A stretch of 64,000 nt of DNA from an uncultured Oscillospiraceae bacterium (lineage in GTDB: Bacteria > Bacillota > Clostridia > Oscillospirales > Oscillospiraceae): the NCBI GenBank assembly GCA_947624985.1, contig CANQMO010000008.1:35410-99409 (forward strand), written 5' to 3'. Both the position numbers and the translations under genes were made by a program. Below, piece after piece: positions 12,133 through 30,598 of the stretch (the stretch's first letter is position 1; each line of letters begins with the position of its first letter). Under the pieces are notes generated by a model. That model saw nothing but the letters and a program-made list of their open reading frames with translations, was not told the DNA's origin and did not search any database.

Positions 12133-12164
12133 AAAACTCCCGCAGCGTCTGCTGCGGGAGTTTT
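12133..12164 (+). terminator. rho-independent terminator after tuf
   Basis: AAAACTCCCGCAGC-GTCT-GCTGCGGGAGTTTT perfect 14-bp stem. Confidence 0.9.
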
Positions 12165-12191
12165 GCGCTTTCTTTTTTCTGCGCGGCTGCC

Positions 12192-12638: not shown

Positions 12639-12672
12639 GGTACATTGTATTCACGTTCGGGAGGGCATATGT

Positions 12673-13392
12673 ATGAAGCTGGAACGGCTTGACAAGATCC
12701 TGGCCGGTTCCGGCCGGTTCACCCGGTCACAGGCCCGGTCCGCTATCCTCTCCGGGACCGTCACGGTGGACGGCCGGCCTGTCCGCCGCCCGGAGGCGAA
12801 GGTGAGCCGGACAGCGGATATCGCCGCCGGGGGCGAGAGCGTGGACGGGGCGGAATTCGTGTACTATATGATGAACAAGCCGGCGGGGACTATCTGCGCC
12901 GTCGAGGACGGTGCTTACCCGGCGGTGACGGGCCTGCTGCCCCGGCACCTGCAAGCCCGGGGACTGTTCCCCGTGGGACGGCTGGACGCGGACGTGACGG
13001 GCCTGCTGCTGCTGACGGACGACGGCGCCTTCGCCCACCGGGTCACCGCGCCCCGGTCGGAGATACGGAAGGTATACGAGGTACAAGCGGACGGCCCCCT
13101 GGGACCGGAGGACGCCGCCCGGCTGGCCGCCGGGGTCACTATGCCGGACGGGACGGCCTACCGCCCGGCAAAGCTCGACGTCGACGGGGAGGACCCCAGC
13201 CGGTGCCTGGTGACGGTCACGGAGGGGAAATATCACGAGGTAAAAAACCTGATAGTCGCCTGCGGACGGCGCGTCACGGCCATGCGCCGGCTGTCCGTCG
13301 GAGCGCTGAAACTGGACGGGACGCTCGCCCCGGGCGCCATCCGACGGCTGACAGAGGAAGAAATTTCCAGTTGCTTTTATAATTTTATCTAA
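12673..13392 (+). CDS. rRNA pseudouridine synthase, RsuA family
   Basis: S4 domain MKLERLDKILAGSGRFTRSQARSAILSGTVTVDG; GLFPVGRLDADVTGLLLLTDDG catalytic motif. Confidence 0.93.
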   Translation: MKLERLDKILAGSGRFTRSQARSAILSGTVTVDGRPVRRPEAKVSRTADIAAGGESVDGAEFVYYMMNKPAGTICAVEDGAYPAVTGLLPRHLQARGLFPVGRLDADVTGLLLLTDDGAFAHRVTAPRSEIRKVYEVQADGPLGPEDAARLAAGVTMPDGTAYRPAKLDVDGEDPSRCLVTVTEGKYHEVKNLIVACGRRVTAMRRLSVGALKLDGTLAPGAIRRLTEEEISSCFYNFI

Positions 13393-13472
13393 TTTGCGTT
13401 CCAGTTTTTGTGCAAATTGGGAATCATTCTGAAAATCGATGAAAAAGTTCACAATTTTATGGGCTGTTTCTA

Positions 13473-13513
13473 TTGCAAAATGACAGCGAATGATTTACAA
13501 TATCCATATTGTA
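13473..13513 (+). promoter_or_regulatory. promoter and overlapping 18-bp palindrome upstream of CdaR/PucR-type regulator
   Basis: TTGCAA-N17-TACAAT; palindrome TACAATAT-CC-ATATTGTA at 13496-13513 overlaps the -10. Confidence 0.6.
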
Positions 13514-13533
13514 TATTGTGGGGGTAAGGACAT

Positions 13534-14622
13534 ATGTCGAGCCGAATTTTCCAAAGCGTTATCCTGCAGATGAAGGACGCCAGCAAGCGCTGCTTTGGCG
13601 TAGTGGACGAGCAGGGGAATGTGATCGCCAGCAGCGATCTTTCGCTGATGGGCTTTTCCATCGGTGAGATCCACCTTGCGGCCCAGGAAGCGGGAACGGA
13701 ACTGTTTATCGCGGCGGGGCGGACCTGCCGGGTGATCGGCGCCGGTGGCAGAGGGACGTATATCGCTTTCGTGGACGGCCAGGACGAGACGGCCCGGAGC
13801 ATATGCATTCTTGTGTCGGTCGCGCTGGCCGAGGCCAAGAGCAGCTATGACGACAAGCATGATACCACGACCTTCGTGAAGAACATCATCTCCGACAACA
13901 TCCTGCCGGGGGACGTGTACGTCCGGGCCAAGGAGTTGGGCTTCAACGCGGAGATGCCCCGGGGCGTGTTCGTGGTCCGGCAGAACGCCGGCGCGGAGAT
14001 GGCGGTCCTGGAGTATCTGCAGAACCTTTTCCCCGCCCGGGACAAGGACTTTGTCCTGTCCATGAGCGAGACGGACGTGGTGGTGATCCGGGAGCTCCAG
14101 CCGGGCTTTGACGCAGTGGAGCTGGAGCACACGGCCCAGCAGATCCAGCACAGCCTGGAGCAGGACATGGGCATCCACTCTGTGGTGGGTATCGGCTCTC
14201 CGGTGCTACACCTGCGGGAGCTTGCGGACCGGTACAAGGAGGCCCAGACCGCCATCGAGGTGGGCAAGGTCTTTGAGAACGACCAGACGGTCATCAGTTA
14301 TGAGAGCCTGGGTATCGGGCGTATCATTTACCAGCTGCCCACGACCCTGTGCGAGATGTTCCTGGCGGAGGTGTTCAAAAAGAGCCCCATCGAGAGCCTT
14401 GACCAGGAGACTCTGTACACCATCAACAAATTCTTCGAGAACAACCTGAACGTGTCGGAGACCAGCCGGAAGCTGTTCGTACACCGCAACACACTGGTGT
14501 ACCGGCTTGAGAAGATCAAAAAGCTCACCGGTCTGGACCTGCGGGAGTTCGACCACGCCATCGTGTTTAAAGTGGCGCTGATGGTCAAGCAGTATCTGGA
14601 CTCCCAGAATACCCGGTATTGA
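13534..14622 (+). CDS. CdaR/PucR-type transcriptional regulator
   Basis: C-terminal PucR HTH: LYTINKFFENNLNVSETSRKLFVHRNTLVYRLEKIKKLTGLDLREFDHAIVFKVALM. Confidence 0.85.
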   Translation: MSSRIFQSVILQMKDASKRCFGVVDEQGNVIASSDLSLMGFSIGEIHLAAQEAGTELFIAAGRTCRVIGAGGRGTYIAFVDGQDETARSICILVSVALAEAKSSYDDKHDTTTFVKNIISDNILPGDVYVRAKELGFNAEMPRGVFVVRQNAGAEMAVLEYLQNLFPARDKDFVLSMSETDVVVIRELQPGFDAVELEHTAQQIQHSLEQDMGIHSVVGIGSPVLHLRELADRYKEAQTAIEVGKVFENDQTVISYESLGIGRIIYQLPTTLCEMFLAEVFKKSPIESLDQETLYTINKFFENNLNVSETSRKLFVHRNTLVYRLEKIKKLTGLDLREFDHAIVFKVALMVKQYLDSQNTRY

Positions 14623-14643
14623 TCCCTACGGAGGCCCTGTTTT

Positions 14644-15342
14644 ATGGTCCTGTTTGAAAACGTATCCATGACCTATCCCGGCGGGGATTTCCCCGCCATA
14701 GACGATATGTCCTTTTCCATCGACGACGGGGAATTCGTCTTTCTCGTCGGCCCGTCCGGGAGCGGCAAGACGTCCATCATCAAGCTGATCACCGGGGAGG
14801 TGCCGGCGGACAGCGGCGTGCTGAACGTGAACGGCTTCGACCTTCGCCACATCCGGCGGCGGAAGCTGCCGCTCATGCGCCGGACCGTGGGCGTCATCTT
14901 CCAGGATTTCCGGCTCATAGAGGACAAGACCATCTACGACAACGTGGCCTTTGCCATGCATGTGGTGGGCGCGTCCAACCGGGACATCCGGGAGCGGGTG
15001 CCCTATGTGCTGGAGCTGGTGGGTCTGGAGGACTGCGGGGACCGCTATCCCCGGGAGGTCTCCGGCGGCGAGCAGCAGCGGGTGGCCGTGGCCCGGGCCA
15101 TCGTGAACAGCCCCCGGCTTCTGATCGCGGACGAGCCCACCGGCAACCTGGACCCGGCCCGGAGCCTGGAACTGATGCTGCTCATGGAGCGTATCAACGA
15201 CAACGAGATGGGAACGACCGTTCTTGTGGTGACCCACGAGAAGGAGCTTGTCAACTCCTTCTCCAAGCGCGTCATCGCCATCGACGAGGGGCAGGTCGTC
15301 TCCGACGGAATGGACGGGTATTACAGCTATGAGATCCATTAA
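14644..15342 (+). CDS. ftsE: cell division ATP-binding protein FtsE
   Basis: MVLFENVSMTYPGGDFPAIDDMSF; GPSGSGKTS, VSGGEQQRVAVARAIVNSPRLLIADEPTGNLDP; adjacent ftsX. Confidence 0.96.
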   Translation: MVLFENVSMTYPGGDFPAIDDMSFSIDDGEFVFLVGPSGSGKTSIIKLITGEVPADSGVLNVNGFDLRHIRRRKLPLMRRTVGVIFQDFRLIEDKTIYDNVAFAMHVVGASNRDIRERVPYVLELVGLEDCGDRYPREVSGGEQQRVAVARAIVNSPRLLIADEPTGNLDPARSLELMLLMERINDNEMGTTVLVVTHEKELVNSFSKRVIAIDEGQVVSDGMDGYYSYEIH

Positions 15343-16216
15343 GATAGGCTACCTCATCAAAGAGGGATTCAAGAGCATAGGCACCCACGGCTTCATGTCC
15401 TTCGCCTCGGTGACCATCGTGGTGGCGTGTCTGGTCATCATGGGCAGTTTCACCCTGATCGGCGTGAACGTGGGCGGGATCCTGGACGAGGTGGAGAGCC
15501 AGATCGAGGTAGTGGCCTATGTGGAGGAGACCTTCACAGACGAGGAGGCCCGCGCTCTCCAGTCGGAGATCGAATATCTGGACAACGTGAAGAGCTGTCA
15601 GTTCGTGCCACGTCAGCAGGCCATGGAGGAGTACGCGGCCCAGTTTCAGGACCAGAGCCTGTTCCAGGATGTGGACGCGGGCGTTCTCCGGGACCGGTAC
15701 GTCATCTATTTTGAGGACATCTCCCTGATGAACGAGACCCTGGATCAATTGGGCAAGATCATCGGCATTGCGGACATCAGCGCCCACACGGAGGTGGCGG
15801 ACGCGCTGGTGAACGTGCGCAACGTGGTCAGCGCCGTGAGCGTTATCCTGATCGTGGTGCTGGTGCTGGTGTGCGTGTTCATCATGTCCAATACCGTGAA
15901 GCTGGCCACGCTGAGCCGCCGGGACGAGATCGCCATCATGAAGATGGTGGGCGCGTCCAACGGCTTCATCCGCTTCCCCTTTGTGGTGGAGGGACTGGTG
16001 CTGGGCGCGCTGGGCGGTTTTCTGGCGTTTGTGCTCCAGTGGGGCATTTACGACGTGGTGGCCAACCGGATCATGACCGGCATGCTGGGCAGGCTCATCA
16101 ACGTGATCCCCTTCGCCTCCGTCAGCGGTCTGGTCCTGGCGATATTTTTGGGCGTGGGCCTGGTGGTGGGCGTGTTCGGAAGCTCCATCGCCATTCGGAA
16201 TTATCTGGAGGTCTGA
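15329..16216 (+). CDS. ftsX: permease-like cell division protein FtsX
   Basis: MRSIKIGYLIKEGFKSIGTHGFMSFASVTIV; four TM topology; overlaps ftsE. Confidence 0.95.
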   Translation: MRSIKIGYLIKEGFKSIGTHGFMSFASVTIVVACLVIMGSFTLIGVNVGGILDEVESQIEVVAYVEETFTDEEARALQSEIEYLDNVKSCQFVPRQQAMEEYAAQFQDQSLFQDVDAGVLRDRYVIYFEDISLMNETLDQLGKIIGIADISAHTEVADALVNVRNVVSAVSVILIVVLVLVCVFIMSNTVKLATLSRRDEIAIMKMVGASNGFIRFPFVVEGLVLGALGGFLAFVLQWGIYDVVANRIMTGMLGRLINVIPFASVSGLVLAIFLGVGLVVGVFGSSIAIRNYLEV

Positions 16217-16264
16217 GCGCCGTCATTCGCGCCCATGGGCGCATACTCTGCGAGGCAGGAATCT

Positions 16265-17641
16265 ATGAAAAAACGTAAGCTTTTCATACAGGCCGTGTGT
16301 ATCGTTCTGGCGGTACTGATACTGCTGTCCATCAGCTTGATGGTGATCGCGCCGTCGGCTTTGGCGGCGTCCAGCGACGATATCCAGAGCGAGATCGACA
16401 GCCTGAACAGCCGGAAGGACGAGATCCAGAGCCGGATGGACGACATCCAGGCGGAGATCGACAGCCTGGACTATGAAAAGGCCAATACCCTGGAGAAGAA
16501 GGCGTATCTTGACCAGCGCAACCAGCTGGCCCAGGAGGAGCTGGACGTCATCCAGGAGCAGATAACCATCATCGACAATCTGATCGCCAATATGCAGGCG
16601 GACCTGGCCGAGGCCCGCGAGGAGGAGCTGACCCAGCGCCAGCGGTTCCTGACCCGGCTCCGGGCCATGGAGGAAAAGACCGACGCCGGTTATATGGACG
16701 TGCTATTCAGCGCCGGCAGTCTGGCGGACCTTCTGACCCGGATGGACATGGTCAGCGAGGTCATGGGCTATGACGAGCGGCTGGAGCGGGAGTACGCCGC
16801 CGCCCGGGAGCGGGTGGAGACGCTGGAGTCCCGGGCGGAGACCATGTTCGCGGAGAACGAGGCCCGCCGGCAGGAGCTGGAGACAAAGCGGGCCCAGCTG
16901 CAAACGGACATCGACGCCGCCTGCGCGCTCATCGCCCAGATGGACCAGGATACCGACGACTATCAGGCCGTTCTGGAGCAGGAGGCAAAGACCCAGGCCC
17001 AGGTGGAGGCGCTGATCGTCCAGAAGGAGGAGGAATTCCAGGCGGCCCGCGCCCGGGAAGAGGCCGAGCGTCTGGCGGCGCTGGCGGCCCAGCGGGCGGC
17101 GGAACAGGCCGCGGCGCAGGCGGCCGCAGCCCAGGCCGCCGAGGACGGCGTGGAGGTGCCTCCCTCTGAGGACGGCGCCGGAACGGGCGAAGGAGAAGGC
17201 GCCGGCGGGGCGGAGGAGGACACCTCCGACGCGCAGGCCACGGGGACCTGGATGATGTGGCCCTGCGGCGCCCGGAGCATCAACTCCCAGTACGGCATGC
17301 GCACCAACCCGGTGACGGGCATCTATCAGCTGCACGCCGGGTGCGACATCGGCGCGGGATATGGGGCCAATATCTGGGCGGCGGCCAGCGGCACGGTCAT
17401 CCAGGCCGGCTGGAACGGCGGCTATGGCAACTGCGTGATGGTCAACCACGGCAATGGATATACTACCCTTTATGGGCATATGTCCTCCATCGCCGTGTCC
17501 AGCGGCCAGAGCGTGAGCCAGGGCCAGGTGCTGGGCTATGTGGGTTCCACCGGCAATTCCACGGGACCCCATCTGCACTTTGAGGTGCGTCTGAGCGCCA
17601 CCGGCGCGTCCACGAACCCGCTGGGCTACGGTTACTATTGA
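16265..17641 (+). CDS. murein hydrolase activator / M23 peptidase with N-terminal coiled coil
   Basis: Signal sequence, coiled coil, C-terminal LHAGCDIGAGYGANIWAAASGTVI...GNSTGPHLHFEVR. Confidence 0.94.
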   Translation: MKKRKLFIQAVCIVLAVLILLSISLMVIAPSALAASSDDIQSEIDSLNSRKDEIQSRMDDIQAEIDSLDYEKANTLEKKAYLDQRNQLAQEELDVIQEQITIIDNLIANMQADLAEAREEELTQRQRFLTRLRAMEEKTDAGYMDVLFSAGSLADLLTRMDMVSEVMGYDERLEREYAAARERVETLESRAETMFAENEARRQELETKRAQLQTDIDAACALIAQMDQDTDDYQAVLEQEAKTQAQVEALIVQKEEEFQAARAREEAERLAALAAQRAAEQAAAQAAAAQAAEDGVEVPPSEDGAGTGEGEGAGGAEEDTSDAQATGTWMMWPCGARSINSQYGMRTNPVTGIYQLHAGCDIGAGYGANIWAAASGTVIQAGWNGGYGNCVMVNHGNGYTTLYGHMSSIAVSSGQSVSQGQVLGYVGSTGNSTGPHLHFEVRLSATGASTNPLGYGYY

Positions 17642-17658
17642 CAGTCGATCAACCTGCA

Positions 17659-17687
17659 CCGGGCGACTATCTGTCGCCCGGTTTTTC
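17659..17687 (+). terminator. intrinsic terminator between M23 gene and ctpA-like gene
   Basis: CCGGGCGAC-TATCT-GTCGCCCGG followed by TTTTTC. Confidence 0.8.
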
Positions 17688-17704
17688 TAGGGGGAAGCAC
17701 AGAT

Positions 17705-18889
17705 ATGGCATCCAAGGGAAGGCGTCCCGGCAAGGGGGCGCTGTACGCTATGTCGGGCGCGCTGGCCGCGTTTGCGATCATCATTTTGGGCTTTGGCGGG
17801 GTAAAGGGCTTTGCCCGGGCCGCCAAGTATGCCGCCGTCATGCGTATCATCCGCAGCCAGTTCGTAGGGGACTACGATCTTGACGCGGCCACGGACGCGG
17901 CGCTGACCGCGGCGGTGGACAGCATAGACGACGACTGGAGCTACTACATGGACGCGGACAGCTACGACGCCTATCAGGACTATTCCGCCAATCTCTATCA
18001 GGGTATCGGCGTCACCATCAGTCAGGACGGGGAGACTGGCGGCTTTGCCATCGTGACCACCGACCGGGACGGCCCGGCGGACCGGGCGGGTCTGGCCGTG
18101 GGGGACGTCATTCTGGCGGTGGACGGCATTTCTGTGCGCGGCAAGGCCGCGGAGGACCTGCGGGCGCTGATACAGGCCGATTACGGGAAGGACGCCCTCA
18201 TCACGGTGCGGCGCGCCGATGGGACCGAGGAGGACGTGGCCGTATCCTGCGAGGCGGTCTATTCCAACCCTGTGTCCTACCAGCTGCTGGACGGCCGCGT
18301 GGGGTATGTGCGGATCGCCAACTTCCGCCAGGGGGCGGGGGAGGAGTCCGTGGCCGCGGTGGAGGCCCTGCTGGAGCAGGGGGCGGACGGGTTCGTGTTC
18401 GACGTGCGCAGCAATCCCGGCGGGCAGGTGTCGGAGATGGTGACGATCCTGGACCGGCTGCTGCCGGAGGGGGACCTGTTCATCCGGGCGGACAAGCGGG
18501 GCCGCGAGGTCGTGGAGAGGTCCGACGAGACGTGCGTCGAGCTTCCCATGGCCGTAGTGGTGAACGCCGACAGCTACAGCGCGGCGGAGTTTTTTGCCGC
18601 GGCGCTGCGGGACTATGACTGGGCGAAGATCGCCGGCCAGCCCACCACGGGCAAGGCCCGCAGCCAGGTGACGTACTCTCTGTGGGACGGCAGCGCGGTG
18701 CATATCTCAAAGTACAGCTATCTGACCCCCGACCGTATCGACCTGTACGACGAGGGGGGTCTGGAGCCGGACAGTACGGCGGAGCTTTCGGAGGAGGAGA
18801 CGGTCCGGTATCAGACCGGCTGGCTGGCCCCGGAGGACGACCCCCAGGTACAGGCGGCCATAGAGCTTCTGGATGACCCGGAATGTTAA
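17705..18889 (+). CDS. S41 family carboxy-terminal processing peptidase (CtpA-like)
   Basis: PDZ domain GIGVTISQDGETGGFAIVT...PADRAGLAVGDVILAVDG; VNADSYSAAEFFAAALRDY...TTGKARSQ catalytic Ser/Lys. Confidence 0.94.
   Translation: MASKGRRPGKGALYAMSGALAAFAIIILGFGGVKGFARAAKYAAVMRIIRSQFVGDYDLDAATDAALTAAVDSIDDDWSYYMDADSYDAYQDYSANLYQGIGVTISQDGETGGFAIVTTDRDGPADRAGLAVGDVILAVDGISVRGKAAEDLRALIQADYGKDALITVRRADGTEEDVAVSCEAVYSNPVSYQLLDGRVGYVRIANFRQGAGEESVAAVEALLEQGADGFVFDVRSNPGGQVSEMVTILDRLLPEGDLFIRADKRGREVVERSDETCVELPMAVVVNADSYSAAEFFAAALRDYDWAKIAGQPTTGKARSQVTYSLWDGSAVHISKYSYLTPDRIDLYDEGGLEPDSTAELSEEETVRYQTGWLAPEDDPQVQAAIELLDDPEC
18848..18872 (+). repeat. left copy of 25-bp direct repeat flanking the GntR-TRAP block
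   Basis: GTACAGGCGGCCATAGAGCTTCTGG, identical to 25659-25683. Confidence 0.95.
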
Positions 18890-18933
18890 CATTATATATT
18901 ACTGTTGACATTTTTTGCGGAATCGTTTATCCT
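18882..18933 (+). promoter_or_regulatory. gntR promoter with two TGT-NN-ACA operator-like sites
   Basis: TTGACA(18905)-N17-TATCCT; palindrome AATGTTAACATT 18882-18893 and TGTTGACA 18903-18910. Confidence 0.65.
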
Positions 18934-18965
18934 TGGGGGAAAGAAGCGACAAGGAGGCTACTCGC

Positions 18966-19664
18966 ATGTACAGCGCCATTCTCCGCAGCTCGGCAACGGT
19001 GCCGGTCCTGGACCAGTTGCGGATCGACATCCTGATGGGTCGCTATAAGCACAATGGAAAGATCACGGAACTCCGTCTGGCGGACCATTATGGCGTCAGC
19101 CGCGCGACCATTCGGGGCGTGCTGCCCGTACTGGAGGCCGAAGGGCTGATCAAGACCATGGACAACGGGACCAAGTGTGTGGTGCCGATGACGCTGAAGG
19201 ATGTGAACAACCTCTATGATATGCGCGAATACGTCGAGGTGAACGCCGTTCGGCGCATACTGGTCATGGACAGCTTTGACCAGAGCCATCTGCTCCGGGC
19301 GCTGGGTCTGCTGGTGGAGAGCCTTGGCAGCGACGACCTGCGCAGCGTGCTCCGGGCGGACATGAATTTCCACGCGGCCATGGTGGACTTGTGCGGCAAC
19401 CGGATCTATTCGCAGATCTACTCGGTATTTAAGGGTTTGGAGATCGCCTTTTTCGAGTTGAACGTGGAACTGCATCCGGAGTACAAGGCCCGCTTTCTGT
19501 CGGAATTGACCGCGCTACATACGGAGATGACCCTGTCCCTGGTGTCGAAGAAGGGGGATGCCGTGGACCTGTTCGAGCGGCATATTGAGGAGGGGCGGGA
19601 CATCTCCCTGCAGGTGATGCGCCGGGTGCAGGATGGTGAACTGATGGCGCCGCCCATCGTCTGA
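18966..19664 (+). CDS. GntR family transcriptional regulator (FCD-type)
   Basis: wHTH LRIDILMGRYKHNGKITELRLADHYGVSRATIRGVLPVLEAEGLI plus all-helical C-terminal domain. Confidence 0.9.
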   Translation: MYSAILRSSATVPVLDQLRIDILMGRYKHNGKITELRLADHYGVSRATIRGVLPVLEAEGLIKTMDNGTKCVVPMTLKDVNNLYDMREYVEVNAVRRILVMDSFDQSHLLRALGLLVESLGSDDLRSVLRADMNFHAAMVDLCGNRIYSQIYSVFKGLEIAFFELNVELHPEYKARFLSELTALHTEMTLSLVSKKGDAVDLFERHIEEGRDISLQVMRRVQDGELMAPPIV

Positions 19665-19836
19665 GTCCTGTCAGGGAAAAGATCATATTGACCGCCGCCG
19701 GGGGCGGCAGTCTGTCATGGGCTGCCACCTCCGGCGTTTTCTATCTTTTTCATCCCATACTGGTCAAAAGATGGCAGTTCAACAGAACAGAATTTAAGCA
19801 ATATGCACAATTGGTTCGATGTGATTTTGGTCACTC

Positions 19837-19892
19837 AGTATTGTAGACAATACTATAAAATTGTTGACAATTTTAAAAAATGGCGGTAAAAT
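19837..19892 (+). promoter_or_regulatory. tandem perfect palindromes and promoter upstream of HpaI aldolase
   Basis: AGTATTGT-AG-ACAATACT (19837-19854), TAAAATTGT-TG-ACAATTTTA (19856-19875); TTGACA(19864)-N17-TAAAAT(19887). Confidence 0.8.
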
Positions 19893-19950
19893 TGTCGCAG
19901 ATAATAAAACGCGTACCGGACGCGACATTAAACAGAATGGATGTGATCGT

Positions 19951-20787
19951 ATGAACCCGATACAGGACAAAGCAAATGATCTGCGCCGGCGGATGGCGGA
20001 GGGTGATTTATTGGTAGGCGCTCATGTGTTTTATAACGATGCGGCGATCACCGAGACCTTCGGTTATATCGGTTTTGACTATGTGTGGATCGACGGTGAA
20101 CACTGCGCCTTTGACAAGCAGGCGCTCCTGTCCCATGTGGTGGGGGCCTATGCGGGAGGGACTGCGTCTTTCGTCCGTGTGGAGTGGAACGACCCGGCCC
20201 TCATCAAGCCGGTTCTGGAGATGGGCGTGGACGGGCTAATCGTACCTATGGTATGCACGGCTGAGCAGGCCCGGGCAGCCGTGGCGGCCTGCACCTATCC
20301 CCCCGGCGGTATCCGCAGTTTCGGACCCCGTCGGGCCAACCAATACGGGGTGCTGTCCAACGAGGAGTATCTGAAAAATGTCCACCGCTCCTTTTTGCGC
20401 CTGCTGCAGATCGAACACCGGCAGGCGGTGGAGAATCTGGAGGAGATACTCACTGTTCCCGGTATCGACGCCCTGATCGTGGGTCCCAATGATCTTTCGG
20501 CGTCCTGCGGGCATCTTGGCGATACGGAACTGCCGGAGATGACGGCCATGTACGACTACATCGCGGCCTGCTGCCAGCGGGCGAACATGCCCTTCGGCGT
20601 CTCCCTCGGGCCGGGGGACAGGCAAGTCATCGACCGGTGGATAAGCCGGGGGGTGTCCATGATCAGCTGTGTGGACGATATCAGCGCGGTAAACCAGGCC
20701 GGCCGGGATATGCTGGGCTATCTGCGGCCCCAGACCGAGGAATCCGCCGGAACGCGTGAAAAAGCCCGTGCGATAAAAAGCGCATAA
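19951..20787 (+). CDS. HpcH/HpaI aldolase/citrate lyase family protein
   Basis: LVGAHVFYNDAAITETFGYIGFDYVWIDGEHCAFD...GPNDLSASCG. Confidence 0.92.
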   Translation: MNPIQDKANDLRRRMAEGDLLVGAHVFYNDAAITETFGYIGFDYVWIDGEHCAFDKQALLSHVVGAYAGGTASFVRVEWNDPALIKPVLEMGVDGLIVPMVCTAEQARAAVAACTYPPGGIRSFGPRRANQYGVLSNEEYLKNVHRSFLRLLQIEHRQAVENLEEILTVPGIDALIVGPNDLSASCGHLGDTELPEMTAMYDYIAACCQRANMPFGVSLGPGDRQVIDRWISRGVSMISCVDDISAVNQAGRDMLGYLRPQTEESAGTREKARAIKSA

Positions 20788-20884
20788 CCATTCGACCTGG
20801 AAAAGGAGGGCAGAATATGGAGTGAGACAGCAGACGGTGTACACAGGGTAAACGGAAGATTTCAAAAAAAGGGAGGTAAAACAG

Positions 20885-22291
20885 ATGGAAACTTATTTTG
20901 AGAAGGCTAAAGAGATACCGGTCCGCGGACATTACGATGTGATTGTCGCGGGAGGCGGCACGGCTGGCTTCGCCGCTGCCATTGCGGCGGCCAGAAGGGG
21001 GTCAAAAACACTTGTCGTTGAACGTATGGCTTGTCTTGGCGGTCAGATAACAGCGGGTATCATGGGGATAATCTGCGATATCAACGACCAGGAAAAGATC
21101 ATCATCAAGGGTATTCCTCTGGAGTTCGTCAACGATCTGTGGGACAGAGGCGGAATAAACAAGCGTGACAAGGAAAACAAACCGGTCAACGAACGGGATT
21201 TCACGAAAGCGGAATTCATCAACTACGATCCTGAGATCGCCAAAGGATTGGTCAACGACTATATCCTCAGAGAAAAAAATCTCACCGTTTTACTTGAGAC
21301 ATGGGTGGCAGACGCCATTATGGACGGCGACAAAGTCGTTGGCATCGTTGTTGAAAACAAGAGTGGACGAAGCGCATACTATGGCAAATGCATAATCGAC
21401 GCCACAGCCGACGCTGATGTGTGTGCGTTCGCGGGCGCGGAGTTTATGCCCTTTTCTCCCGAGGAAGTCCATCCTGTCTCGCTTATCGCTCAAATCGGCG
21501 GAATCGATAAAGAGGCCTTTTTCGATTTCTATAATGAGCATCCGGAGTGGCGGGATACCTTCCCCACCGACACCGCGTGGGAGCCGGGCGTTTTCCATAA
21601 GCTTGGGATCGACAATGAGGTAGAGGGCGTTGAGCTTCCGCCGGAACTTGAATATCTGCGCCATTGGTGCATCATTATTCACGACAGCCCTGTGGAAAAT
21701 GTGATGCACCTGAACATGACCGGCGAAGCGCAGGTGGACGGTACCAATGCCGAGGAGATATCGAAATCCATTATTACGTCGAGAAAAAGGATCAGCGAAT
21801 GTCTTGAGGTCATGAAGAAAGTCGTTCCCGGATGGGAAAACGGCTATGTCTACGCGACGGCCTCCATGCTGGGCGTCAGAGAATCCCGGCAGATCGTTGG
21901 CGAATACACCATCACGGAGGATGATATCTTTGGCTATCACAGATTTGCTGACGCGCTCTGCTCGATAAGCGGCGGTATAGGTGTCCATACCAGCGATGGC
22001 CAGTGGGTGGATATGAGTGCGCCTCCTTCCGGAACTTCCTATGATATACCGCTCAGATCCATGCTGCCTGTTAAGATCAACGGACTTATCGTCGCCGGCC
22101 GCTGCCTCTCCGCTAATCATGTGGCGATGGGAACTGTAAGAACGATCGGCCCGTGTCTCGCCATGGGACAGGGCGCGGCGATCGCCGCCTCCCTGGCCAT
22201 TGAACTGGGCGTCGAACCGAGAGATATCCCCTCTGATAAGCTGCAGAAAGCCCTGATAGAGCAGGGTGTCAATCTGGAAGGGATCAATTAA
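20885..22291 (+). CDS. FAD-dependent oxidoreductase (FAD_oxidored-like)
   Basis: YDVIVAGGGTAGFAAAIAAARRGSKTLVVERMACLGGQITAGIMG; C-terminal GLIVAGRCLSANHVAMGTVRTIGPCLAMGQGAAIAA. Confidence 0.92.
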   Translation: METYFEKAKEIPVRGHYDVIVAGGGTAGFAAAIAAARRGSKTLVVERMACLGGQITAGIMGIICDINDQEKIIIKGIPLEFVNDLWDRGGINKRDKENKPVNERDFTKAEFINYDPEIAKGLVNDYILREKNLTVLLETWVADAIMDGDKVVGIVVENKSGRSAYYGKCIIDATADADVCAFAGAEFMPFSPEEVHPVSLIAQIGGIDKEAFFDFYNEHPEWRDTFPTDTAWEPGVFHKLGIDNEVEGVELPPELEYLRHWCIIIHDSPVENVMHLNMTGEAQVDGTNAEEISKSIITSRKRISECLEVMKKVVPGWENGYVYATASMLGVRESRQIVGEYTITEDDIFGYHRFADALCSISGGIGVHTSDGQWVDMSAPPSGTSYDIPLRSMLPVKINGLIVAGRCLSANHVAMGTVRTIGPCLAMGQGAAIAASLAIELGVEPRDIPSDKLQKALIEQGVNLEGIN

Positions 22292-22318
22292 CGCTGTTTC
22301 TGTTACAGAAAAAGCGTT
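22290..22318 (+). other. intercistronic stem-loop upstream of dctP
   Basis: AACGCT-G-TTTCTGT-T-ACAGAAA-A-AGCGTT. Confidence 0.6.
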
Positions 22319-22409
22319 CCCAGCCCGGAATGACTTGCTTTTCAGGCGTTATTTGGACTCTGTAACCGTGGGGAAATTATTAAATCACAATATGAATAAG
22401 GAGGCAATT

Positions 22410-23459
22410 ATGAATCACTTCATGAAGCGCTTGCTCGTCCTCGCACTTGCATTGACGATGGTTTTCTCTCTGTGTGCCTTTGCCGGCGCAAGTACCTCTG
22501 CTGAAGATGAAGACGCCGGCGAGGTCTATGCCGCCCGCATCACGACCACGAACAATGAGGAGGCCTTTTTGGGGCAGGCTGTAAAATACCTGTTTGATCT
22601 GATCGAGGAAAAGACGGACGGTAGGATCCAGCCCGAATACTACTTCAGCGGCGTGCTTGGAGAAAAGCAGGCCAATATGGAGGGTATGCGCACGCATACC
22701 ATTACGGCCGGCGCGGTCAGCGAGACCGATCTGGCGATATATTCTCCCGGCTGGTCTGTTTTCTCCCTGCCCTATGTTTTCGAGGGGAGCCTGGAAACAG
22801 AACTGGCCTGCTATCAGGACGAGGAGTTTTTTGAGTTCCTTGATTCTACGCTGGAGCAATCCGGTCTGAAGCTTATGGTGTTTTTCACCGCGGGTTTCAG
22901 AAATCCTCTGAACAGCGTTCGCCCGATCCATACCCCCGAGGATGCCAAGGGTATCCGCCTCCGGGTCGTTCAAAATGAGTATCTGGCAAAAACCTATGAG
23001 GCGATGGGATTCACGCCTGTTTCCCTTGGCTGGAGCGAGGTCTATTCCGCCATGCAGCAGGGTGTGGTGGACGGAGCGGAAAACAGCGCCGCGCTTTTGC
23101 TGGATAACCAGCTGACAGACTTTGGCAAGTATTATTCCGTGATCAACGCTCTCATCGGCAGCGAGGCCATAGTGATGGATCGCAAGTTCTACGATGACCT
23201 CCCCGACGATCTTCAGGCCGCGGTGGACGAGGCGTGCAAAGAGGCCATGGCCAAGGAATGGAGCGAATTTGCCGAATATGATGCCTCTGCTCAGGAGACA
23301 ATGATTGAAAAGGGCGTGGAAGTCACCGAACTCACCGAAGACGAGATCAATGTCTTTATCGACAGCATTTCCAGTCTGAAGGAGACCATGTTCAGTGAGG
23401 TCCCGGAGACCGAAGAATTCTACAACCAGATCCAGGAGACGATCGAACGGGTAAAATGA
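22410..23459 (+). CDS. dctP: TRAP transporter substrate-binding protein, DctP family
   Basis: Signal peptide; GVLGEKQANMEGMRTHTI, KGIRLRVVQNEYLAKTYEAMGFTPVSLGWSEVYSAMQQGVVDGAEN. Confidence 0.94.
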   Translation: MNHFMKRLLVLALALTMVFSLCAFAGASTSAEDEDAGEVYAARITTTNNEEAFLGQAVKYLFDLIEEKTDGRIQPEYYFSGVLGEKQANMEGMRTHTITAGAVSETDLAIYSPGWSVFSLPYVFEGSLETELACYQDEEFFEFLDSTLEQSGLKLMVFFTAGFRNPLNSVRPIHTPEDAKGIRLRVVQNEYLAKTYEAMGFTPVSLGWSEVYSAMQQGVVDGAENSAALLLDNQLTDFGKYYSVINALIGSEAIVMDRKFYDDLPDDLQAAVDEACKEAMAKEWSEFAEYDASAQETMIEKGVEVTELTEDEINVFIDSISSLKETMFSEVPETEEFYNQIQETIERVK

Positions 23460-23474
23460 GTTGAAGGTAAGCCG

Positions 23475-23508
23475 TACTGGTCAACTCATCATAATGAGTT
23501 GACCAGTA
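23475..23508 (+). other. 15-bp perfect intercistronic stem-loop between dctP and dctQ
   Basis: TACTGGTCAACTCAT-CATA-ATGAGTTGACCAGTA. Confidence 0.9.
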
Positions 23509-23537
23509 TCGTAACTGTACATAAAGGGGATACAGCT

Positions 23538-24089
23538 ATGGAAAAACTGACGAATATTCGGCAATGCAAGGCACTCAGGCTATTTTATAAGATTGAAAAT
23601 ACTGTGGCAGTTACGTCGGCAGTGATGATCATCCTTCTTGAACTGTATATCGTGTTTGCGCGGAGTATTTTTCATAAGAGCGCGCTCTGGATGGATGAGT
23701 TTATAACCTTTTTGATCGTGCTGCTCGCCATGCTGGGAATGTCCATCGGCGTTAAGGAAAACTTACACAGCGCCCTGGAAAGCTTTGTTTGCAGATTGCC
23801 CAGATCCATACAGAAAGTCGTTTACATTTTTGACCGGGCGGTAGTCGGCGCGTTTTTGGGTATTGCTACCTGGGGCGGATTTCGTTGGCTGGCGTCTGTA
23901 AAAGGGCAGAAAATGATCATTCTGCCATGGCCGATAAGCATTATGTACAGCTTTGTCGTTTTTGGATGCCTTCTGGCGTTTATTGAAAACATTCTTAGTA
24001 CCATTGAGGCTGTCGCGCAGAAGGAATGCCGTTTTATCACCATGGAAGAACAGATGGAGCGTGAAACGGAGTTTACCCAGAGCGTTTGA
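23538..24089 (+). CDS. dctQ: TRAP transporter small permease, DctQ family
   Basis: Four hydrophobic segments, between dctP and dctM; WMDEFITFLIVLLAMLGMSIGVKENLHSALE. Confidence 0.9.
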   Translation: MEKLTNIRQCKALRLFYKIENTVAVTSAVMIILLELYIVFARSIFHKSALWMDEFITFLIVLLAMLGMSIGVKENLHSALESFVCRLPRSIQKVVYIFDRAVVGAFLGIATWGGFRWLASVKGQKMIILPWPISIMYSFVVFGCLLAFIENILSTIEAVAQKECRFITMEEQMERETEFTQSV

Positions 24090-24169
24090 CCGGCGCCTGT
24101 GCGGCACGAACCGACAAGGCGCAGTCATAAGTTGCTGAAGCCGGTCCATTTCCAGAAAAGAGGTGGAGT

Positions 24170-25459
24170 ATGTCTATTCTAATTTTGGTAGCAGTACTGT
24201 TTGCATTGATCGTTCTGGGCGTTCCGATCGCCTGGGCGCTTGGGATATCCGGTACGGTAGGACTTTTTATTCTTGGCGGAGATCCATTTACCATTGTTCC
24301 TCAATCAATATACAGCGGCGTATCATATTTCCCGTTGATGGCGATACCGTTTTTCTTTTTTGCCGGAGAGTTGATGAATAAAGGCGGTATCACCAAAAGA
24401 CTTATTGATCTGTCCTCGCTTCTTGTTGGGCGCGTTGCCGGGTCTCTTGCCTATGTCAATGTTGTTTGCAGCATGTTTTTGGGCGGTATTACAGGGTCTT
24501 CGGTGGCCGACGTTTCCTCAGAGGGCGCCTGGATCATTCCGGCCATGAAAGAACAGGGGTATTCGTCTGAAGAAGCGGTCGCCGTTACGGTCACGTCCTC
24601 CATCATGGGACCCATTATTCCCCCCAGCATCATTATGGTGATATATGGGAGCAACATGAATGTCTCTGTGGGCGCTCTTTTTATGGGAGGTATCATTCCG
24701 GGAATACTGGTCGCGGCCTCTCTGGCCCTGGTGGTTTTCCTCCGCAACAAAAAATACGGATTTCCCAGAAGGACCGAAAAGTATACGCCCGCGCAAGTGC
24801 GAAGCATACTGATCAACGCGATCATCCCCCTGGGAATGCCAATCATCATTATGGGGGGTATTCTGGGCGGGATATTTACGGCCACCGAAGCGGGCGCCAT
24901 TGCGTGCTTATACGCGGTCATAGCCTCCTGCTTCATCATGAGGACGGTTAAGTTGTCCGAACTGCCCCATATGCTGCTCAATACTGTAAAACTCACAGGT
25001 ACCGTTCTGATCATACTCGGATGTTCCAAGACACTGAGCTGGACGCTCACTCTTTTGCGGGTACAAGACGGACTGGCTGCCTTTATTACATCGCATATCA
25101 ACAGCGGCGTAGCGTTTCTGCTTATCGTCAATCTGCTGTATCTCTTTCTGGGCTGTTTTATGGACCCTGCCGCTGCGCTGCTGATGTTTGGACCTATCCT
25201 GGCTCCGATAGCCTCCAGGTATGGTATCAATCCCATCCATTTTGGCCTGATCTCGTGCATCAATCTTACGATTGGAAATGCGACGCCGCCCTTGGGCCAG
25301 AGTCTGTTTGTCGGATGCAAAATCGGTAAAGTATCTGTCGGCAGAGAGGCCAGAGCGATTTTGCCCTATTTGTTTGGACTGGTCATAGTTCTGTTTATTA
25401 CTACTTATATCCCGGAAATTTCGCTTTTCCTGCCGCGTTTGGCGGGGCTGGCCGGCTGA
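24170..25459 (+). CDS. dctM: TRAP transporter large permease, DctM family
   Basis: FFFFAGELMNKGGITKRLIDLSSLLVGRVAGSLAYVNVVCSMFLGGITGSSVADVSSEGAWIIPAM...GPIIPPSIIMVIYG. Confidence 0.96.
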   Translation: MSILILVAVLFALIVLGVPIAWALGISGTVGLFILGGDPFTIVPQSIYSGVSYFPLMAIPFFFFAGELMNKGGITKRLIDLSSLLVGRVAGSLAYVNVVCSMFLGGITGSSVADVSSEGAWIIPAMKEQGYSSEEAVAVTVTSSIMGPIIPPSIIMVIYGSNMNVSVGALFMGGIIPGILVAASLALVVFLRNKKYGFPRRTEKYTPAQVRSILINAIIPLGMPIIIMGGILGGIFTATEAGAIACLYAVIASCFIMRTVKLSELPHMLLNTVKLTGTVLIILGCSKTLSWTLTLLRVQDGLAAFITSHINSGVAFLLIVNLLYLFLGCFMDPAAALLMFGPILAPIASRYGINPIHFGLISCINLTIGNATPPLGQSLFVGCKIGKVSVGREARAILPYLFGLVIVLFITTYIPEISLFLPRLAGLAG

Positions 25460-25557
25460 TCCGCTCTCCGTTGCGCTGTAAACAAGCGGTTTATGGCGGA
25501 TAATGAGCCGGACCGATTCGTCATCGGGGCTGCCCGGAGATTCACAAACAGCAAAGT

Positions 25558-25592
25558 GCAGACTGAGATCGCTTTCGGGCGGTCTCAGTCTG
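25558..25592 (+). terminator. hairpin after TRAP operon
   Basis: GCAGACTGAGATCGC-TTTCGG-GCGGTCTCAGTCTG(T) with a single G-T wobble. Confidence 0.55.
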
Positions 25593-25658
25593 TGAGTTTT
25601 ACGCAGGCTTTTTCCCTGTTCGCTGTCTTTTTCTGCGCCTTATTGAAATTCCTGCGGA

Positions 25659-25683
25659 GTACAGGCGGCCATAGAGCTTCTGG
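25659..25683 (+). repeat. right copy of 25-bp direct repeat; residual ctpA 3' end
   Basis: Identical to 18848-18872; in-frame continuation GGC GCT TGA gives VQAAIELLGA*. Confidence 0.95.
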
Positions 25684-25687
25684 GCGC

Positions 25688-25716
25688 TTGACAGGCGGGG
25701 CCCGGATCACTATAAT
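25688..25716 (+). promoter_or_regulatory. greA promoter (consensus)
   Basis: TTGACA-N17-TATAAT; -35 overlaps the residual ctpA stop codon. Confidence 0.8.
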
Positions 25717-25752
25717 ATTCGCGGACTTACAAATCTTGAGGGAGGCAATACG

Positions 25753-26226
25753 ATGGCGGAGACAAAGTACAAGATGAGCCGTGAGCGGTACGAGGAGATC
25801 CAGAAGGAGCTGGATTATCTTCAGACCGTCCGCGAGAAGGAGGTTTCCGAACTCATCAAGGAGGCCAGGAGCTACGGCGACCTTTCGGAGAACAGCGAGT
25901 ATGACGAGGCCAAGACCGAGCAGGGCAAGCTGTATTCCAAGATCGCGGAGATGAAAAATCTGCTGGAGAACGCGGAGATCGTGGAGCACACCCACCGGGC
26001 CGGCGTCGTGGGTATCGGCAGCCGGGTCACGGTGATGGACCTGGAGATGAACGAGCAGCTGGAGTACCAGATCGTGGGCAGCCAGGAGGCCAACCCCATG
26101 ACCGGGCGTATCTCCGACGACTCTCCCTTCGGCAAGGGGCTGATCGGCCACAGGATCGGCGAGACCGTCACCGTGGAAGCGCCCGCCGGGGAACTGAGAT
26201 TCGAGATACTGAACGTCACATTCTGA
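25753..26226 (+). CDS. greA: transcription elongation factor GreA
   Basis: EIQKELDYLQTVREKEVSELIKEARSYGDLSENSEYDEAKTEQGKL. Confidence 0.96.
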   Translation: MAETKYKMSRERYEEIQKELDYLQTVREKEVSELIKEARSYGDLSENSEYDEAKTEQGKLYSKIAEMKNLLENAEIVEHTHRAGVVGIGSRVTVMDLEMNEQLEYQIVGSQEANPMTGRISDDSPFGKGLIGHRIGETVTVEAPAGELRFEILNVTF

Positions 26227-26252
26227 TCTTATACACAGGAAGGAATATAGCT

Positions 26253-27752
26253 ATGAGCCAATATGCGCCGGGGTACCGGACGGAGCCGGAGGGCCTGTCC
26301 GACGAAATGCGCGTGCGCCGGGAGAAGCTTTTCAAGCTCCAGGACGCCGGGCACAACCCGTATCATATCACCAAATTCGACCGCACCCACTTCTCATCCG
26401 ACATCGTGAAGGATTTCGACGCCCTGGAGGAGAAGGACGTGCGGGTAGCCGGGCGCGTTATGGCCAAACGGGTGCAGGGCAAGGCGGGCTTCATGGACCT
26501 ACAGGATGACCGGGGCCGTATCCAGCTTTATGTGAGCGTGAACGATCTGGGGCCGGAGGGTCTGGCGGCGGTCAAGACCTGGGACGTGGGCGACATCGTG
26601 GGGGCGGAGGGCTTCGTGTTCAAGACCCGCACGGAGGCCGTCTCCGTCCATGTGAAGGACATACGGCTCCTCGCCAAGAGCCTGCGGCCCCTGCCGGAGA
26701 AATTCCACGGTCTGACTGACACGGACCAGCGCTACCGCCGCCGGTATCTTGACCTGATCACCAACGGGGAGTCCCGCCGGGTGTTCGAGCTGCGGACCAG
26801 GTTTATCAGCCATATACGCCAGTATCTGGACCAGCGGGGGTATCTGGAGGTGGAGACCCCGGTGCTGGGCACCATCCAGGGCGGCGCCACGGCCCGGCCC
26901 TTCGTCACCCACCACAACACCCTGGACCTGGATATGTACATGCGTATCGCCACAGAGCTGAACCTGAAGCGGCTCATCGTGGGCGGCATGGAGCGGGTCT
27001 ATGAGATCGGGCGGATCTTCCGCAACGAGGGCATGGACACCAAGCACAACCCGGAGTTCACCACGCTGGAGATGTATGAGAGCTACGCCAACTTTGAGAC
27101 CATGATGGACTATGTGGAGGGGATGCTCTCCTCCGCCGCCATGAAGCTGCGGGGCACCTACCATCTCACCTGGGGCGGTAATGAGATCGACATGTCCCCC
27201 GGCTGGCGGCGCATGACCATGATCGACGCGGTGAAGGAATATGCGGGCGTGGACTTCGGCGCCATATCCGGCGACAACGAGGCCGCGGCCGCAGCCAGGG
27301 CCGCCGGGGTGGATATGGACGGGAAGGAGCCCACCTGGGGCAACGCCCTTTACGAGACCTTTGACCAGAAGGTGGAGGAGAGGCTGATCCAGCCCACCTT
27401 TATCACCATGTACCCGGTGGAGGTGTCGCCGCTGGCCAAGCGCAGTCCGGCTGACGGACGGCTGACGGAGCGGTTCGAGGCTTTTATCGGCGCCTGCGAG
27501 ATGGGCAACGCCTTTTCGGAGTTGAACGACCCGCTGGACCAGCGGCTGCGTTTCGAGGCCCAGATGGCCCTGAAGGCCAAGGGCGACGACGAGGCCAGCG
27601 ACATGGACGTGGATTACTGCGAGGCGCTGGAATACGGCATGCCGCCCACAGGCGGTCTGGGCGTGGGCATTGACCGGGCGGTCATGCTCCTGGCGGGCGT
27701 GGACTCCATCCGGGACGTCATCCTGTTCCCGACGATGAAGCCGCAGGACTGA
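26253..27752 (+). CDS. lysS: lysine--tRNA ligase (class II)
   Basis: VAGRVMAKRVQGKAGFMDLQD, FRNEGMDTKHNPEFTTLEMYESYA, GLGVGIDRAVMLLAGVDSIRDVILFPTMKP. Confidence 0.97.
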   Translation: MSQYAPGYRTEPEGLSDEMRVRREKLFKLQDAGHNPYHITKFDRTHFSSDIVKDFDALEEKDVRVAGRVMAKRVQGKAGFMDLQDDRGRIQLYVSVNDLGPEGLAAVKTWDVGDIVGAEGFVFKTRTEAVSVHVKDIRLLAKSLRPLPEKFHGLTDTDQRYRRRYLDLITNGESRRVFELRTRFISHIRQYLDQRGYLEVETPVLGTIQGGATARPFVTHHNTLDLDMYMRIATELNLKRLIVGGMERVYEIGRIFRNEGMDTKHNPEFTTLEMYESYANFETMMDYVEGMLSSAAMKLRGTYHLTWGGNEIDMSPGWRRMTMIDAVKEYAGVDFGAISGDNEAAAAARAAGVDMDGKEPTWGNALYETFDQKVEERLIQPTFITMYPVEVSPLAKRSPADGRLTERFEAFIGACEMGNAFSELNDPLDQRLRFEAQMALKAKGDDEASDMDVDYCEALEYGMPPTGGLGVGIDRAVMLLAGVDSIRDVILFPTMKPQD

Positions 27753-27760
27753 AAAAGGCC

Positions 27761-28897
27761 ATGTCGGAACAGAAAGGCCGGACAGAGCCGGCGGCATACT
27801 TCAGCCTGATGAAGTTCGTGGGTTCGTTTTGTATCGTCGTCTTTTTGCACTATAACGACCACTTTCTGCCGAGGCTGGGCATGGAGAACCCCTTCGCGGG
27901 AAACGCGCTTCTCTGGGATATCTCCCATAACAGCTTTGTGCTGGTGGAGATGTATTTCATCATTTCCGGCGCGCTGTTCGCGTGGGTGTATAAAGACCGG
28001 ATCATAGCCGGGGGGAGGTTCGATCCCTTCATCGGAAAGCGCATTTTGCGTATCTTCCCGCCGGCTGTAATAACGAGCGTTGTCATGTATCTGGGCAACG
28101 CCCTGCTGTATAAGTATAACGGGACGCTTTGGAGCTGCGGGACGCTGGATCTGATGGAGCTGTGTTTCGACGTCCTGTTCGGCGGGAAGCCCGTTTTTGG
28201 CGCCGCCAATACGCTGAACGGCCCCATCTGGTACATAAACGTGCTGATGGTGTGCTATGTTTTCGCCTATATCCTGACGCGCTCTTACAAAAGGCAGCGG
28301 TCCGTTTTCCTTTACGCGCTCCCTATCCTGATCGGCCTGATGATACAGTATTCCGGCGTCGGGTTCGTTATTTGGAACAACTCGGTCGCCCGGGGGCTCA
28401 TAGCGTTTTTCATCGGCGTGCTGCTGGGGATGTTCCTTGCGGTATACCGGGAGAGATTTACCCCGCGAACCTGCCGGCTGATACGGCTGGCGGCCGGTCT
28501 GGAGCTGGCCGCTGCGGTCTTTGTGAGGCTTTGCCCCTGGCACGGACTGCTCATCAAGAACATAGCCAACTTTTATGCGTTTCTGGTATTTCCCAGCGTG
28601 ATCTTCCTGTGCTATGACTGCCATTGGCTGAACAGGCTCTGTTCTACGGGCCTGGTCAGGTGGATGGGGAACATATCCTTTGGCATGTATCTGTGGAACT
28701 TCCCCATCTATCTGGGGCTGCACATGCTGGTGGTCTCCGGCCATATGCCGCTGGACGTCACGTCCGCGCCGTTTTTTATCCTTGTCACGGTCCTGCATCT
28801 GGTCATCGCCAGCGCTTCTTATTATTTGCTGGACCGGAAGCTGGTCGGTAAATTGACGGAGCTGCTGGATAGAGCTCAAATGACGCGGGGGAAATAG
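27761..28897 (+). CDS. acyltransferase family protein (acyltransferase_3, OatA-like membrane domain)
   Basis: Multi-TM; YFIISGALFAWVYKDRI...NGPIWYINVLMVCYVFAYIL...WMGNISFGMYLWNFPIYLG. Confidence 0.8.
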   Translation: MSEQKGRTEPAAYFSLMKFVGSFCIVVFLHYNDHFLPRLGMENPFAGNALLWDISHNSFVLVEMYFIISGALFAWVYKDRIIAGGRFDPFIGKRILRIFPPAVITSVVMYLGNALLYKYNGTLWSCGTLDLMELCFDVLFGGKPVFGAANTLNGPIWYINVLMVCYVFAYILTRSYKRQRSVFLYALPILIGLMIQYSGVGFVIWNNSVARGLIAFFIGVLLGMFLAVYRERFTPRTCRLIRLAAGLELAAAVFVRLCPWHGLLIKNIANFYAFLVFPSVIFLCYDCHWLNRLCSTGLVRWMGNISFGMYLWNFPIYLGLHMLVVSGHMPLDVTSAPFFILVTVLHLVIASASYYLLDRKLVGKLTELLDRAQMTRGK

Positions 28898-28981
28898 AAT
28901 GCGAGGGCTCCCTTTGCGGGAGTCCGGGAGGCGTTACGCGCTTTCCGGGATATCATTGGTGATCGTATAGGAGAGTAGGAT

Positions 28982-30598
28982 ATGAGGAAAAAGCAGGCAG
29001 AGCGCAATTCCAGCCTGGAGCTGCTGCGCATACTTTGCATACTGGCGATCATTGGCGATCATTTTGTAGGGCAATCCGGTATCGCGGAGAGCGGCTCGCT
29101 CCCCGGCGCTTTTTTCTATACGGCGGTCATCAGCCTGTCGCGCGTCGCGTGCAGTGTGTATATCATCATAAGCGCGTGGTTTTTGGTGGACCGGGACGTT
29201 CAGATAAAGAGAGTGTTCCATGTCTGGCTGACCGTCGTGATGTATACGGTCCCGATCATGGCCTATATGTATTATATCGGCCTTGCGGGGAAAGAGGATC
29301 TGCTGCGGGCGCTGCTGCCCGTTGAAGAGAGCCCCCTGTGGTTCGCGGGGTATTATATTCTGCTGATCCTCACATCGCCGGTCCTCAATCTGTTGCTGCG
29401 CAAAGAGAACAGGCGTATCGCCGAATATGTGATATTCGTTTTGCTTGTTCTCAATGTGCTCTATCCGACCATAACGGCGCGGCTGGGATTTTTCTCCAAT
29501 GATCTGTTTGCTCTCATCTTCCTGTATCTTTTGACCGGATACATAAAAAAATACAGGGACGATCTTCCGAACGCAAAAAAATGCATGGCCGTTTTTTTTG
29601 CCGTATGGGGGTCGTTGACGGTACTCCGGGCGCTGGCGCGGATCAACGGCTCTTCCCGGCTCTATATCTGGACGCTGATCGGCGAATATGGGGAGGTCTA
29701 TCGCGCCAGATTACAGACGCTTCCCAATCTGGCGCAGGCATACTGCCTTTTCTTTGCCTTCAAGGGGATAAAGCTGAAGAACTCGAAGCTCATCAATACT
29801 GCGGCCAGCGCCACTCTGGGCGTATATTGCTTCCATCAGGTCCCCGTATGGTATGGCTACCTGTGGAAGAACATTTTTCATACGCCGTTTTTCACCTCGA
29901 TCCTCCATGGGAAGCTGAGGATGCTCTATACACTGGGCAGTATTCTGACGGTGTGGCTGTGCGGGACTGTCATTGAGCTTATCAGAAGCCGCCTTTCCGG
30001 CGCGGTGATCGAATCCAGGGCCTGGTATGGAGCGATGTGCCGGAAGATCGACGACGGACTGCGTTTCAGTATCCCGGAAAACAGCGAGAGCACGGAGAGG
30101 CCATCTTCGCCATCTATGAGGAAGGTCGCAAAGTATGTCCTCATAGGCGCCGTTATATACTTCAGCCTGGTGAACTGCGTGGTCAGAGAGCATTATTGGA
30201 TCCGGCCTCTGAATGCCGATCTTGTACGGGTCGAGGAGCTTGATTTTCATCTGGAAGCGGATGTGGCGTATACTGACGGGCTTTTGACAGGAACGGTCAC
30301 CGTCACGAACGACGGAGAGCCTATCCTGGCGCCGTCCACCGGGGCGCGTCCGATCAATTTGGGTATAAGCGTTGTGGACGCGGACGGGAATATGATCGAA
30401 CAGGACTATTTGCACACCGCTATCAAGAGCGCGGGAATACTGAAAAGCGGTGAGTCCCAGCCGGTGGAAATAGAATTGACGGACCTGGCGGCATATGCCG
30501 CAGAAGGAAACGGCATAAGATTTGAGATCCTACAGGAGAATGTCGGGTGGCTTGACGATACGGCAGTCTACTACTGGTTTGGGGAAGGGACGGAGTGA
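28982..30598 (+). CDS. acyltransferase family protein with C-terminal extracytoplasmic domain
   Basis: RNSSLELLRILCILAIIGDHFVG...SRVACSVYIIISAWFLVDRDV; extra TM at ~380 then beta-rich domain. Confidence 0.8.
   Translation: MRKKQAERNSSLELLRILCILAIIGDHFVGQSGIAESGSLPGAFFYTAVISLSRVACSVYIIISAWFLVDRDVQIKRVFHVWLTVVMYTVPIMAYMYYIGLAGKEDLLRALLPVEESPLWFAGYYILLILTSPVLNLLLRKENRRIAEYVIFVLLVLNVLYPTITARLGFFSNDLFALIFLYLLTGYIKKYRDDLPNAKKCMAVFFAVWGSLTVLRALARINGSSRLYIWTLIGEYGEVYRARLQTLPNLAQAYCLFFAFKGIKLKNSKLINTAASATLGVYCFHQVPVWYGYLWKNIFHTPFFTSILHGKLRMLYTLGSILTVWLCGTVIELIRSRLSGAVIESRAWYGAMCRKIDDGLRFSIPENSESTERPSSPSMRKVAKYVLIGAVIYFSLVNCVVREHYWIRPLNADLVRVEELDFHLEADVAYTDGLLTGTVTVTNDGEPILAPSTGARPINLGISVVDADGNMIEQDYLHTAIKSAGILKSGESQPVEIELTDLAAYAAEGNGIRFEILQENVGWLDDTAVYYWFGEGTE

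Follow-up and report, generated by a model that had tools for sequence, protein, structure and literature searches.

Evidence for insertion of a foreign, putatively catabolic operon, with duplication of 25 bp of its target, between an S41 protease gene and greA in an uncultured Oscillospiraceae bacterium

Between 10 and 18% of the variable segments of bacterial genomes are flanked by direct repeats, mostly shorter than 30 bp (PMC2884548), and indels bounded by repeats are known in Haloquadratum walsbyi (PMC3119063). The locus described here lies in a window of 64,000 nucleotides, the whole stretch of DNA that was analysed. Such variable segments have been defined by an exact repeat, 5 bp or longer, at each border, and by an empty allele in which the repeat is single (PMC2884548); the locus and its relatives show both. 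Likewise, direct repeats comparable to attL and attR lie at both ends, and the empty site holds a single copy. The junction is made of the following features, numbered as in the window:

17705..18889, + strand: S41 (PDZ) protease gene (Pfam PF03572 and PDZ), whose last codons, DDPEC and the stop, come from the inserted DNA
18848..18872, + strand: left copy of the 25-bp repeat, the last shared S41 codons
18873..25658, no strand: inserted segment, 6786 bp, with breakpoints from blastn against the nearest relatives G169 and G177, the crossover points being ambiguous within the 25-bp repeat
25659..25683, + strand: right copy of the 25-bp repeat, what is left of the ancestral S41 tail
25688..25716, + strand: greA promoter, TTGACA-N17-TATAAT, with the ancestral S41 stop TGA inside its -35 box
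25753..26226, + strand: greA, transcription elongation factor (PF01272 and PF03449)

The repeat, GTACAGGCGGCCATAGAGCTTCTGG, is exact at 18848-18872 and at 25659-25683, where shuffled sequences predict none, and no exact direct repeat in the window is longer. Identity between the copies stops precisely at both edges of the 25-mer. The left copy reads ...VQAAIELL-DDPEC* (TAA at 18887-18889) and the right one ...VQAAIELL-GA* (TGA at 25689-25691); a sequence-only reading of the window had given the same coordinates and the same two frames. It had also suggested a genome-wide search, which returned these two copies only, even at three mismatches (2,283,420 bases). Non-paralogous two-copy direct repeats of at least 25 bp, 1.5 to 50 kb apart, number six in the genome, this pair included. 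Two of the other five are tRNA-type repeats (contigs C14 and C15), with a tyrosine recombinase near each; the third is a palindrome, the fourth is part of a longer repeat adjoining a serine recombinase (C11), and the fifth is a 52-bp repeat. On contig C11 of G000, at about 64911-70680, near-identical direct repeats of about 100 bp surround 5.6 kb with one radical-SAM-like and one ABC-transporter-like ORF, next to the serine recombinase. Contig C21 of G000 carries, at about 18323, regularly spaced repeats with a period of 67, possibly a CRISPR array.

Relatives tell what the site looked like before. In a genus sample of 35 genomes the S41/greA locus could be read in 31 congeners, and in all 31 the block is absent and greA is the very next gene, its start codon lying 35-259 bp from the S41 stop. 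Most of these S41 tails end in VQAA-x-x-L-x-A* or a near variant, with CTTGACAG...TATAAT directly after. By blastn, homology to the nearest relatives ends at 18873 and restarts at 25659/25660: G169 matches 11556-18873 at 83.5% and 25659-27740 at 88.4%, the two matches overlapping by 26 positions in the subject, and G177 gives the same pattern with an overlap of 25. When the flanks are joined without the block, they align without a gap at the junction to both. The empty site that the sequence-only reading had predicted therefore exists, and with it the insertion geometry that it had drawn, a new C-terminus on the left and the old tail with the greA promoter on the right, finds support. Because the homology to relatives breaks cleanly, with an overlap of about 25 bp, we hold with high confidence that the block is a genuine, clean, lineage-specific insertion accompanied by a 25-bp duplication. 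The event would be recent, since the repeat copies are identical while the flanks differ by 12-17% from the nearest relatives; unless the copies were homogenised, it probably came after the split from those relatives.

What was inserted carries the following features:

18905..18933, + strand: promoter-like site for the GntR gene, TTGACA-N17-TATCCT (10 of 12 matches, by consensus only)
18975..19664, + strand: GntR-family regulator with FCD domain (Pfam PF00392 and PF07729)
19836..19909, + strand: operator-like repeats ATTGTAGACAAT and ATTGTTGACAAT, overlapping a promoter-like TTGACA-N17-TAAAAT at 19864-19892
19951..20787, + strand: HpcH/HpaI-family aldolase (PF03328), its nearest named NCBIfam models, GarL/HpaI, being far below cut-offs
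20885..22291, + strand: FAD-dependent oxidoreductase (PF12831, E=1.3e-98)
22410..23459, + strand: TRAP solute-binding protein DctP (PF03480)
23535..24089, + strand: TRAP small permease DctQ (PF04290)
24170..25459, + strand: TRAP large permease DctM (PF06808, E=7e-117)
25558..25593, + strand: strong hairpin 3' of DctM (101-nt stretch, -37.8 kcal/mol, z=-4.5)

Judged from its sequence, the piece appears to be a whole regulatory unit, running from promoter-like sites and regulator through operator-like repeats, aldolase, FAD oxidoreductase and TRAP DctPQM to the hairpin, which is probably the transcript end. The GntR gene has a possible earlier start, a TTG at 18915, and another ATG at 18967. Palindromes of operator type, ATTGTnGACAAT, lie over the second promoter-like site and are putative GntR operators. 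The cargo would serve GntR-controlled TRAP uptake of an organic or sugar acid and its breakdown by aldolase and FAD oxidoreductase, the substrate being placed at class level only; matches to the NCBIfam models of the YiaMN diketogulonate transporter are, as for GarL/HpaI, below cut-offs.

This cargo is evidently foreign to the lineage, inasmuch as the best match of its FAD protein in a phylum-level sampling of more than 1,000 genomes is at 46%. Closer in, the family has one other match, at 35% (401 genomes, E<=1e-60), the order none among 396 genomes at 1e-90, and the class sample, which partly overlaps that of the phylum, a best match of 40%. In the genome with the 46% relative (G447), FAD, DctP, DctQ and DctM genes follow in the same order; its GntR regulator is weakly similar only, and the 20 kb examined hold no aldolase match. 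Composition is mosaic: the FAD and TRAP genes have 46-54% GC, the GntR and aldolase genes 59-60%, and the adjoining flank genes 59-66%. The lower GC of the TRAP/FAD genes relative to the flanks, part of the sequence-only reading, is thus real, though the block as a whole is not extreme, its 52.5% falling at the 4th percentile of equal-sized windows of the genome. As for a donor, a search of plasmids gave a sole match of 84 bp, in a GntR gene, and one of phages gave none; the block DNA matched genus genomes in short fragments only, with no other genome carrying it, and a scan of wider genome contigs returned one weak 43% fragment and no donor sequence.

Why this position? A point absent from the earlier reading is that the greA -35 box, TTGACA at 25688-25693, contains the stop codon of the right copy, and the S41 TGA lies inside the greA TTGACA in 29 of 31 congeners. 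As a consequence of this overlap, an insertion without duplication would sever either the S41 tail or the link between greA and its promoter. Thanks to the 25-bp duplication, every S41 codon as far as the repeat is preserved and DDPEC* is added, and greA retains TTGACA-N17-TATAAT. Selection on an overlapping gene and promoter would account for the position, so that a dedicated attachment site need not be assumed; the overlap seems to us the better explanation of the two. One of the two exceptional congeners (G164, locus L091) carries an independent second insertion, of about 200 bp, at this very S41/greA junction. Its S41 ends in DSLNESAQKR*, and AGTCTGACCGCTTGA (S-L-T-A*) has persisted on the right; the likeness of this junction to a duplicated S41 tail, short and imperfect, is suggestive only. 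In G182 (L045) the greA leader has about 110 bp extra between -10 box and start codon.

Other genes stand between S41 and greA in several family genomes. A family-wide hotspot was considered and set aside: outside G113, no repeat of the S41 tail longer than 12 bp was found there. In G113 (L085+L086) an exact direct repeat of 73 bp that includes a promoter-like sequence, at joined positions 2345 and 23296, encloses 21 kb between S41 and greA; the genes in it are mostly of housekeeping type. Within the window itself, positions 27756-30590 hold two acyltransferase genes (PF01757) absent from G177, where lysS almost directly adjoins the next shared stretch. G177 also lacks positions 32038-40635, 8.6 kb in which ORFs resembling LacI, ribokinase, SIS and ribose ABC transporter genes were recognised by eye; this segment starts in the 3' end of a MATE-like gene and gives that protein a new tail. 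Neither segment has long exact repeats at its ends. Since two further accessory segments of this sort adjoin the locus, gene flux without mobility genes looks usual in this region.

The explanation that we favour, and to which we give about an even chance, is a one-off illegitimate capture of a foreign operon with a 25-bp target duplication, kept by selection. It starts from what the comparisons show: an ancestral site without the block, its breakpoints, a duplication, restriction to one lineage, cargo that is foreign, and a stop codon whose overlap with the -35 box is conserved. A foreign segment of 6786 bp with a self-contained catabolic operon would have entered the S41/greA promoter junction once, recently, by an illegitimate event such as the filling-in of staggered ends at a break, or a template switch during joining, and 25 bp of target would have been duplicated as it did. 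The duplication would then have been retained because S41 lost no codon before the end of the repeat and received a short new tail, and because the greA promoter stayed whole. Classical NHEJ was rejected as the joining route, no Ku homologue or domain being found in the genome (about 88% complete); template switching or alternative end-joining is on that ground the likelier. A search of the literature on illegitimate recombination with template switching found nothing relevant, and one on integrase-less islands with direct repeats found a single relevant paper. Against capture speaks the length of the repeat: 25 bp is high for random end joining and lies within the range of attachment-site cores, and the tyrosine-integrase elements of the same genome have repeats of 19-31 bp.

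That length leads to the alternative that fares best, site-specific integration at a core in the S41 3' end, carried out by a tyrosine or serine recombinase that acted in trans or whose gene has since disappeared. The direct-repeat geometry, the position at a gene 3' end and the in-frame replacement tail all suit it, and the genome, with nine tyrosine recombinase and eight resolvase-domain matches, has enzymes that could act in trans. We nevertheless find it unlikely. A domain scan of the six genes of the block detected no recombinase, transposase or Cas1 domain, the remaining gaps being short and intergenic; this bears out the remark of the sequence-only reading that the block has neither integrase nor transposase, and a lost integrase would have left no remnant although the repeats are perfect, that is, recent. 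Core-type palindromes round the crossover are no better than in shuffles (fractions 0.38-0.68 for the best), a search that a weak or asymmetric site could escape. Unlike the tRNA ends at the tyrosine-integrase elements of the genome, the 25-mer of the block is not conserved in the genus, being mismatched at five positions or more in each of 29 congeners compared; an element passing from one species to another would be ill served by such a target. In addition, no recombinase-bearing element was recognised at the junction in congeners or in the inspected family loci (ORFs read by eye). The proposal of the sequence-only reading that an integrative element used the S41 3' end as its attachment site is therefore left unsupported: neither an integrase nor a remnant of one was found, inverted repeats at core and termini do not exceed those of shuffles, the genome holds the site nowhere else, and every congener examined differs at five positions or more.

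Two further accounts are improbable, and to a similar degree. The first is transposition, with a target duplication of 25 bp, by a transposase or Cas1-like integrase that escaped recognition or worked in trans. A perfect, target-like duplication round foreign cargo is what it would leave, and casposons make duplications of 1-27 bp, some of them at gene 3' ends (PMC4046053). Set against this, end-to-end scores for terminal inverted repeats lie within those of shuffles at 40, 80 and 150 bp, the genes of the block encode no transposase or Cas1, and the genome has a single copy. Beyond this, one might imagine an unrecognised trans-acting enzyme that inserts complete operons at the 3' ends of genes, duplicating about 25 bp of target and needing no terminal signals in the cargo, a conjecture to which we give little probability. 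The second account has the insertion made in another strain and brought here, duplication included, by homologous recombination in flanks that are indeed conserved and syntenic across the genus; it leaves the origin of the duplication unexplained, and the block was found in no other genome.

Less probable still is an artefact of the draft assembly, which is in 44 contigs and for which 25 bp is close to short assembly k-mers: both junctions must then be false, and a false join would presumably need a separate circular 6.8-kb molecule with the same 25-mer. Finally, deletions bounded by short repeats being documented (PMC3119063), the block could in principle be ancestral and lost from relatives between the 25-bp repeats, but with 31 of 31 readable congeners devoid of it and the FAD protein nearly absent from the family this would ask for many parallel losses, while the repeats stayed perfect as flanks diverged by 12-17%, and we give it almost no credence.

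Illegitimate capture thus remains our preferred account. The shape of the insertion is of a common, already known kind, and the event is otherwise ordinary gene flux. As a recent operon gain without mobility genes it is unusually well resolved, the unoccupied site, the two breakpoints and the target duplicate all being legible. That a stop codon overlaps a promoter here suggests why an insertion of the duplication type was retained. The entry of integrase-less catabolic cassettes into genomes becomes testable at one locus.

Compared with known systems, the block has points in common with several. It resembles some casposons in its 3'-end target and in a duplication within their range of up to 27 bp (PMC4046053), but differs from casposons and from target-duplicating transposons in having no terminal inverted repeats, cas1 or polB. 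With IMEs, ICEs and prophages it shares insertion at a gene 3' end, direct repeats and a replaced gene tail; unlike them, it has no recombinase, conserved attachment site or mobility genes. Homology-facilitated illegitimate recombination likewise brings in foreign DNA without a dedicated recombinase and needs long homology at one incoming end (PMC3240628); here only 25 bp are shared, and the homology of the flanks to relatives stops sharply at the repeat on both sides. The closest likeness in form is to the segments mentioned at the outset, which are also strain-specific, placed between core genes and bordered by a repeat of less than 30 bp present as a single copy at the empty site (PMC2884548; PMC3119063). 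The authors of those studies mostly infer deletions between repeats; here, by contrast, the relatives show that DNA was gained, and what was gained is a foreign operon.
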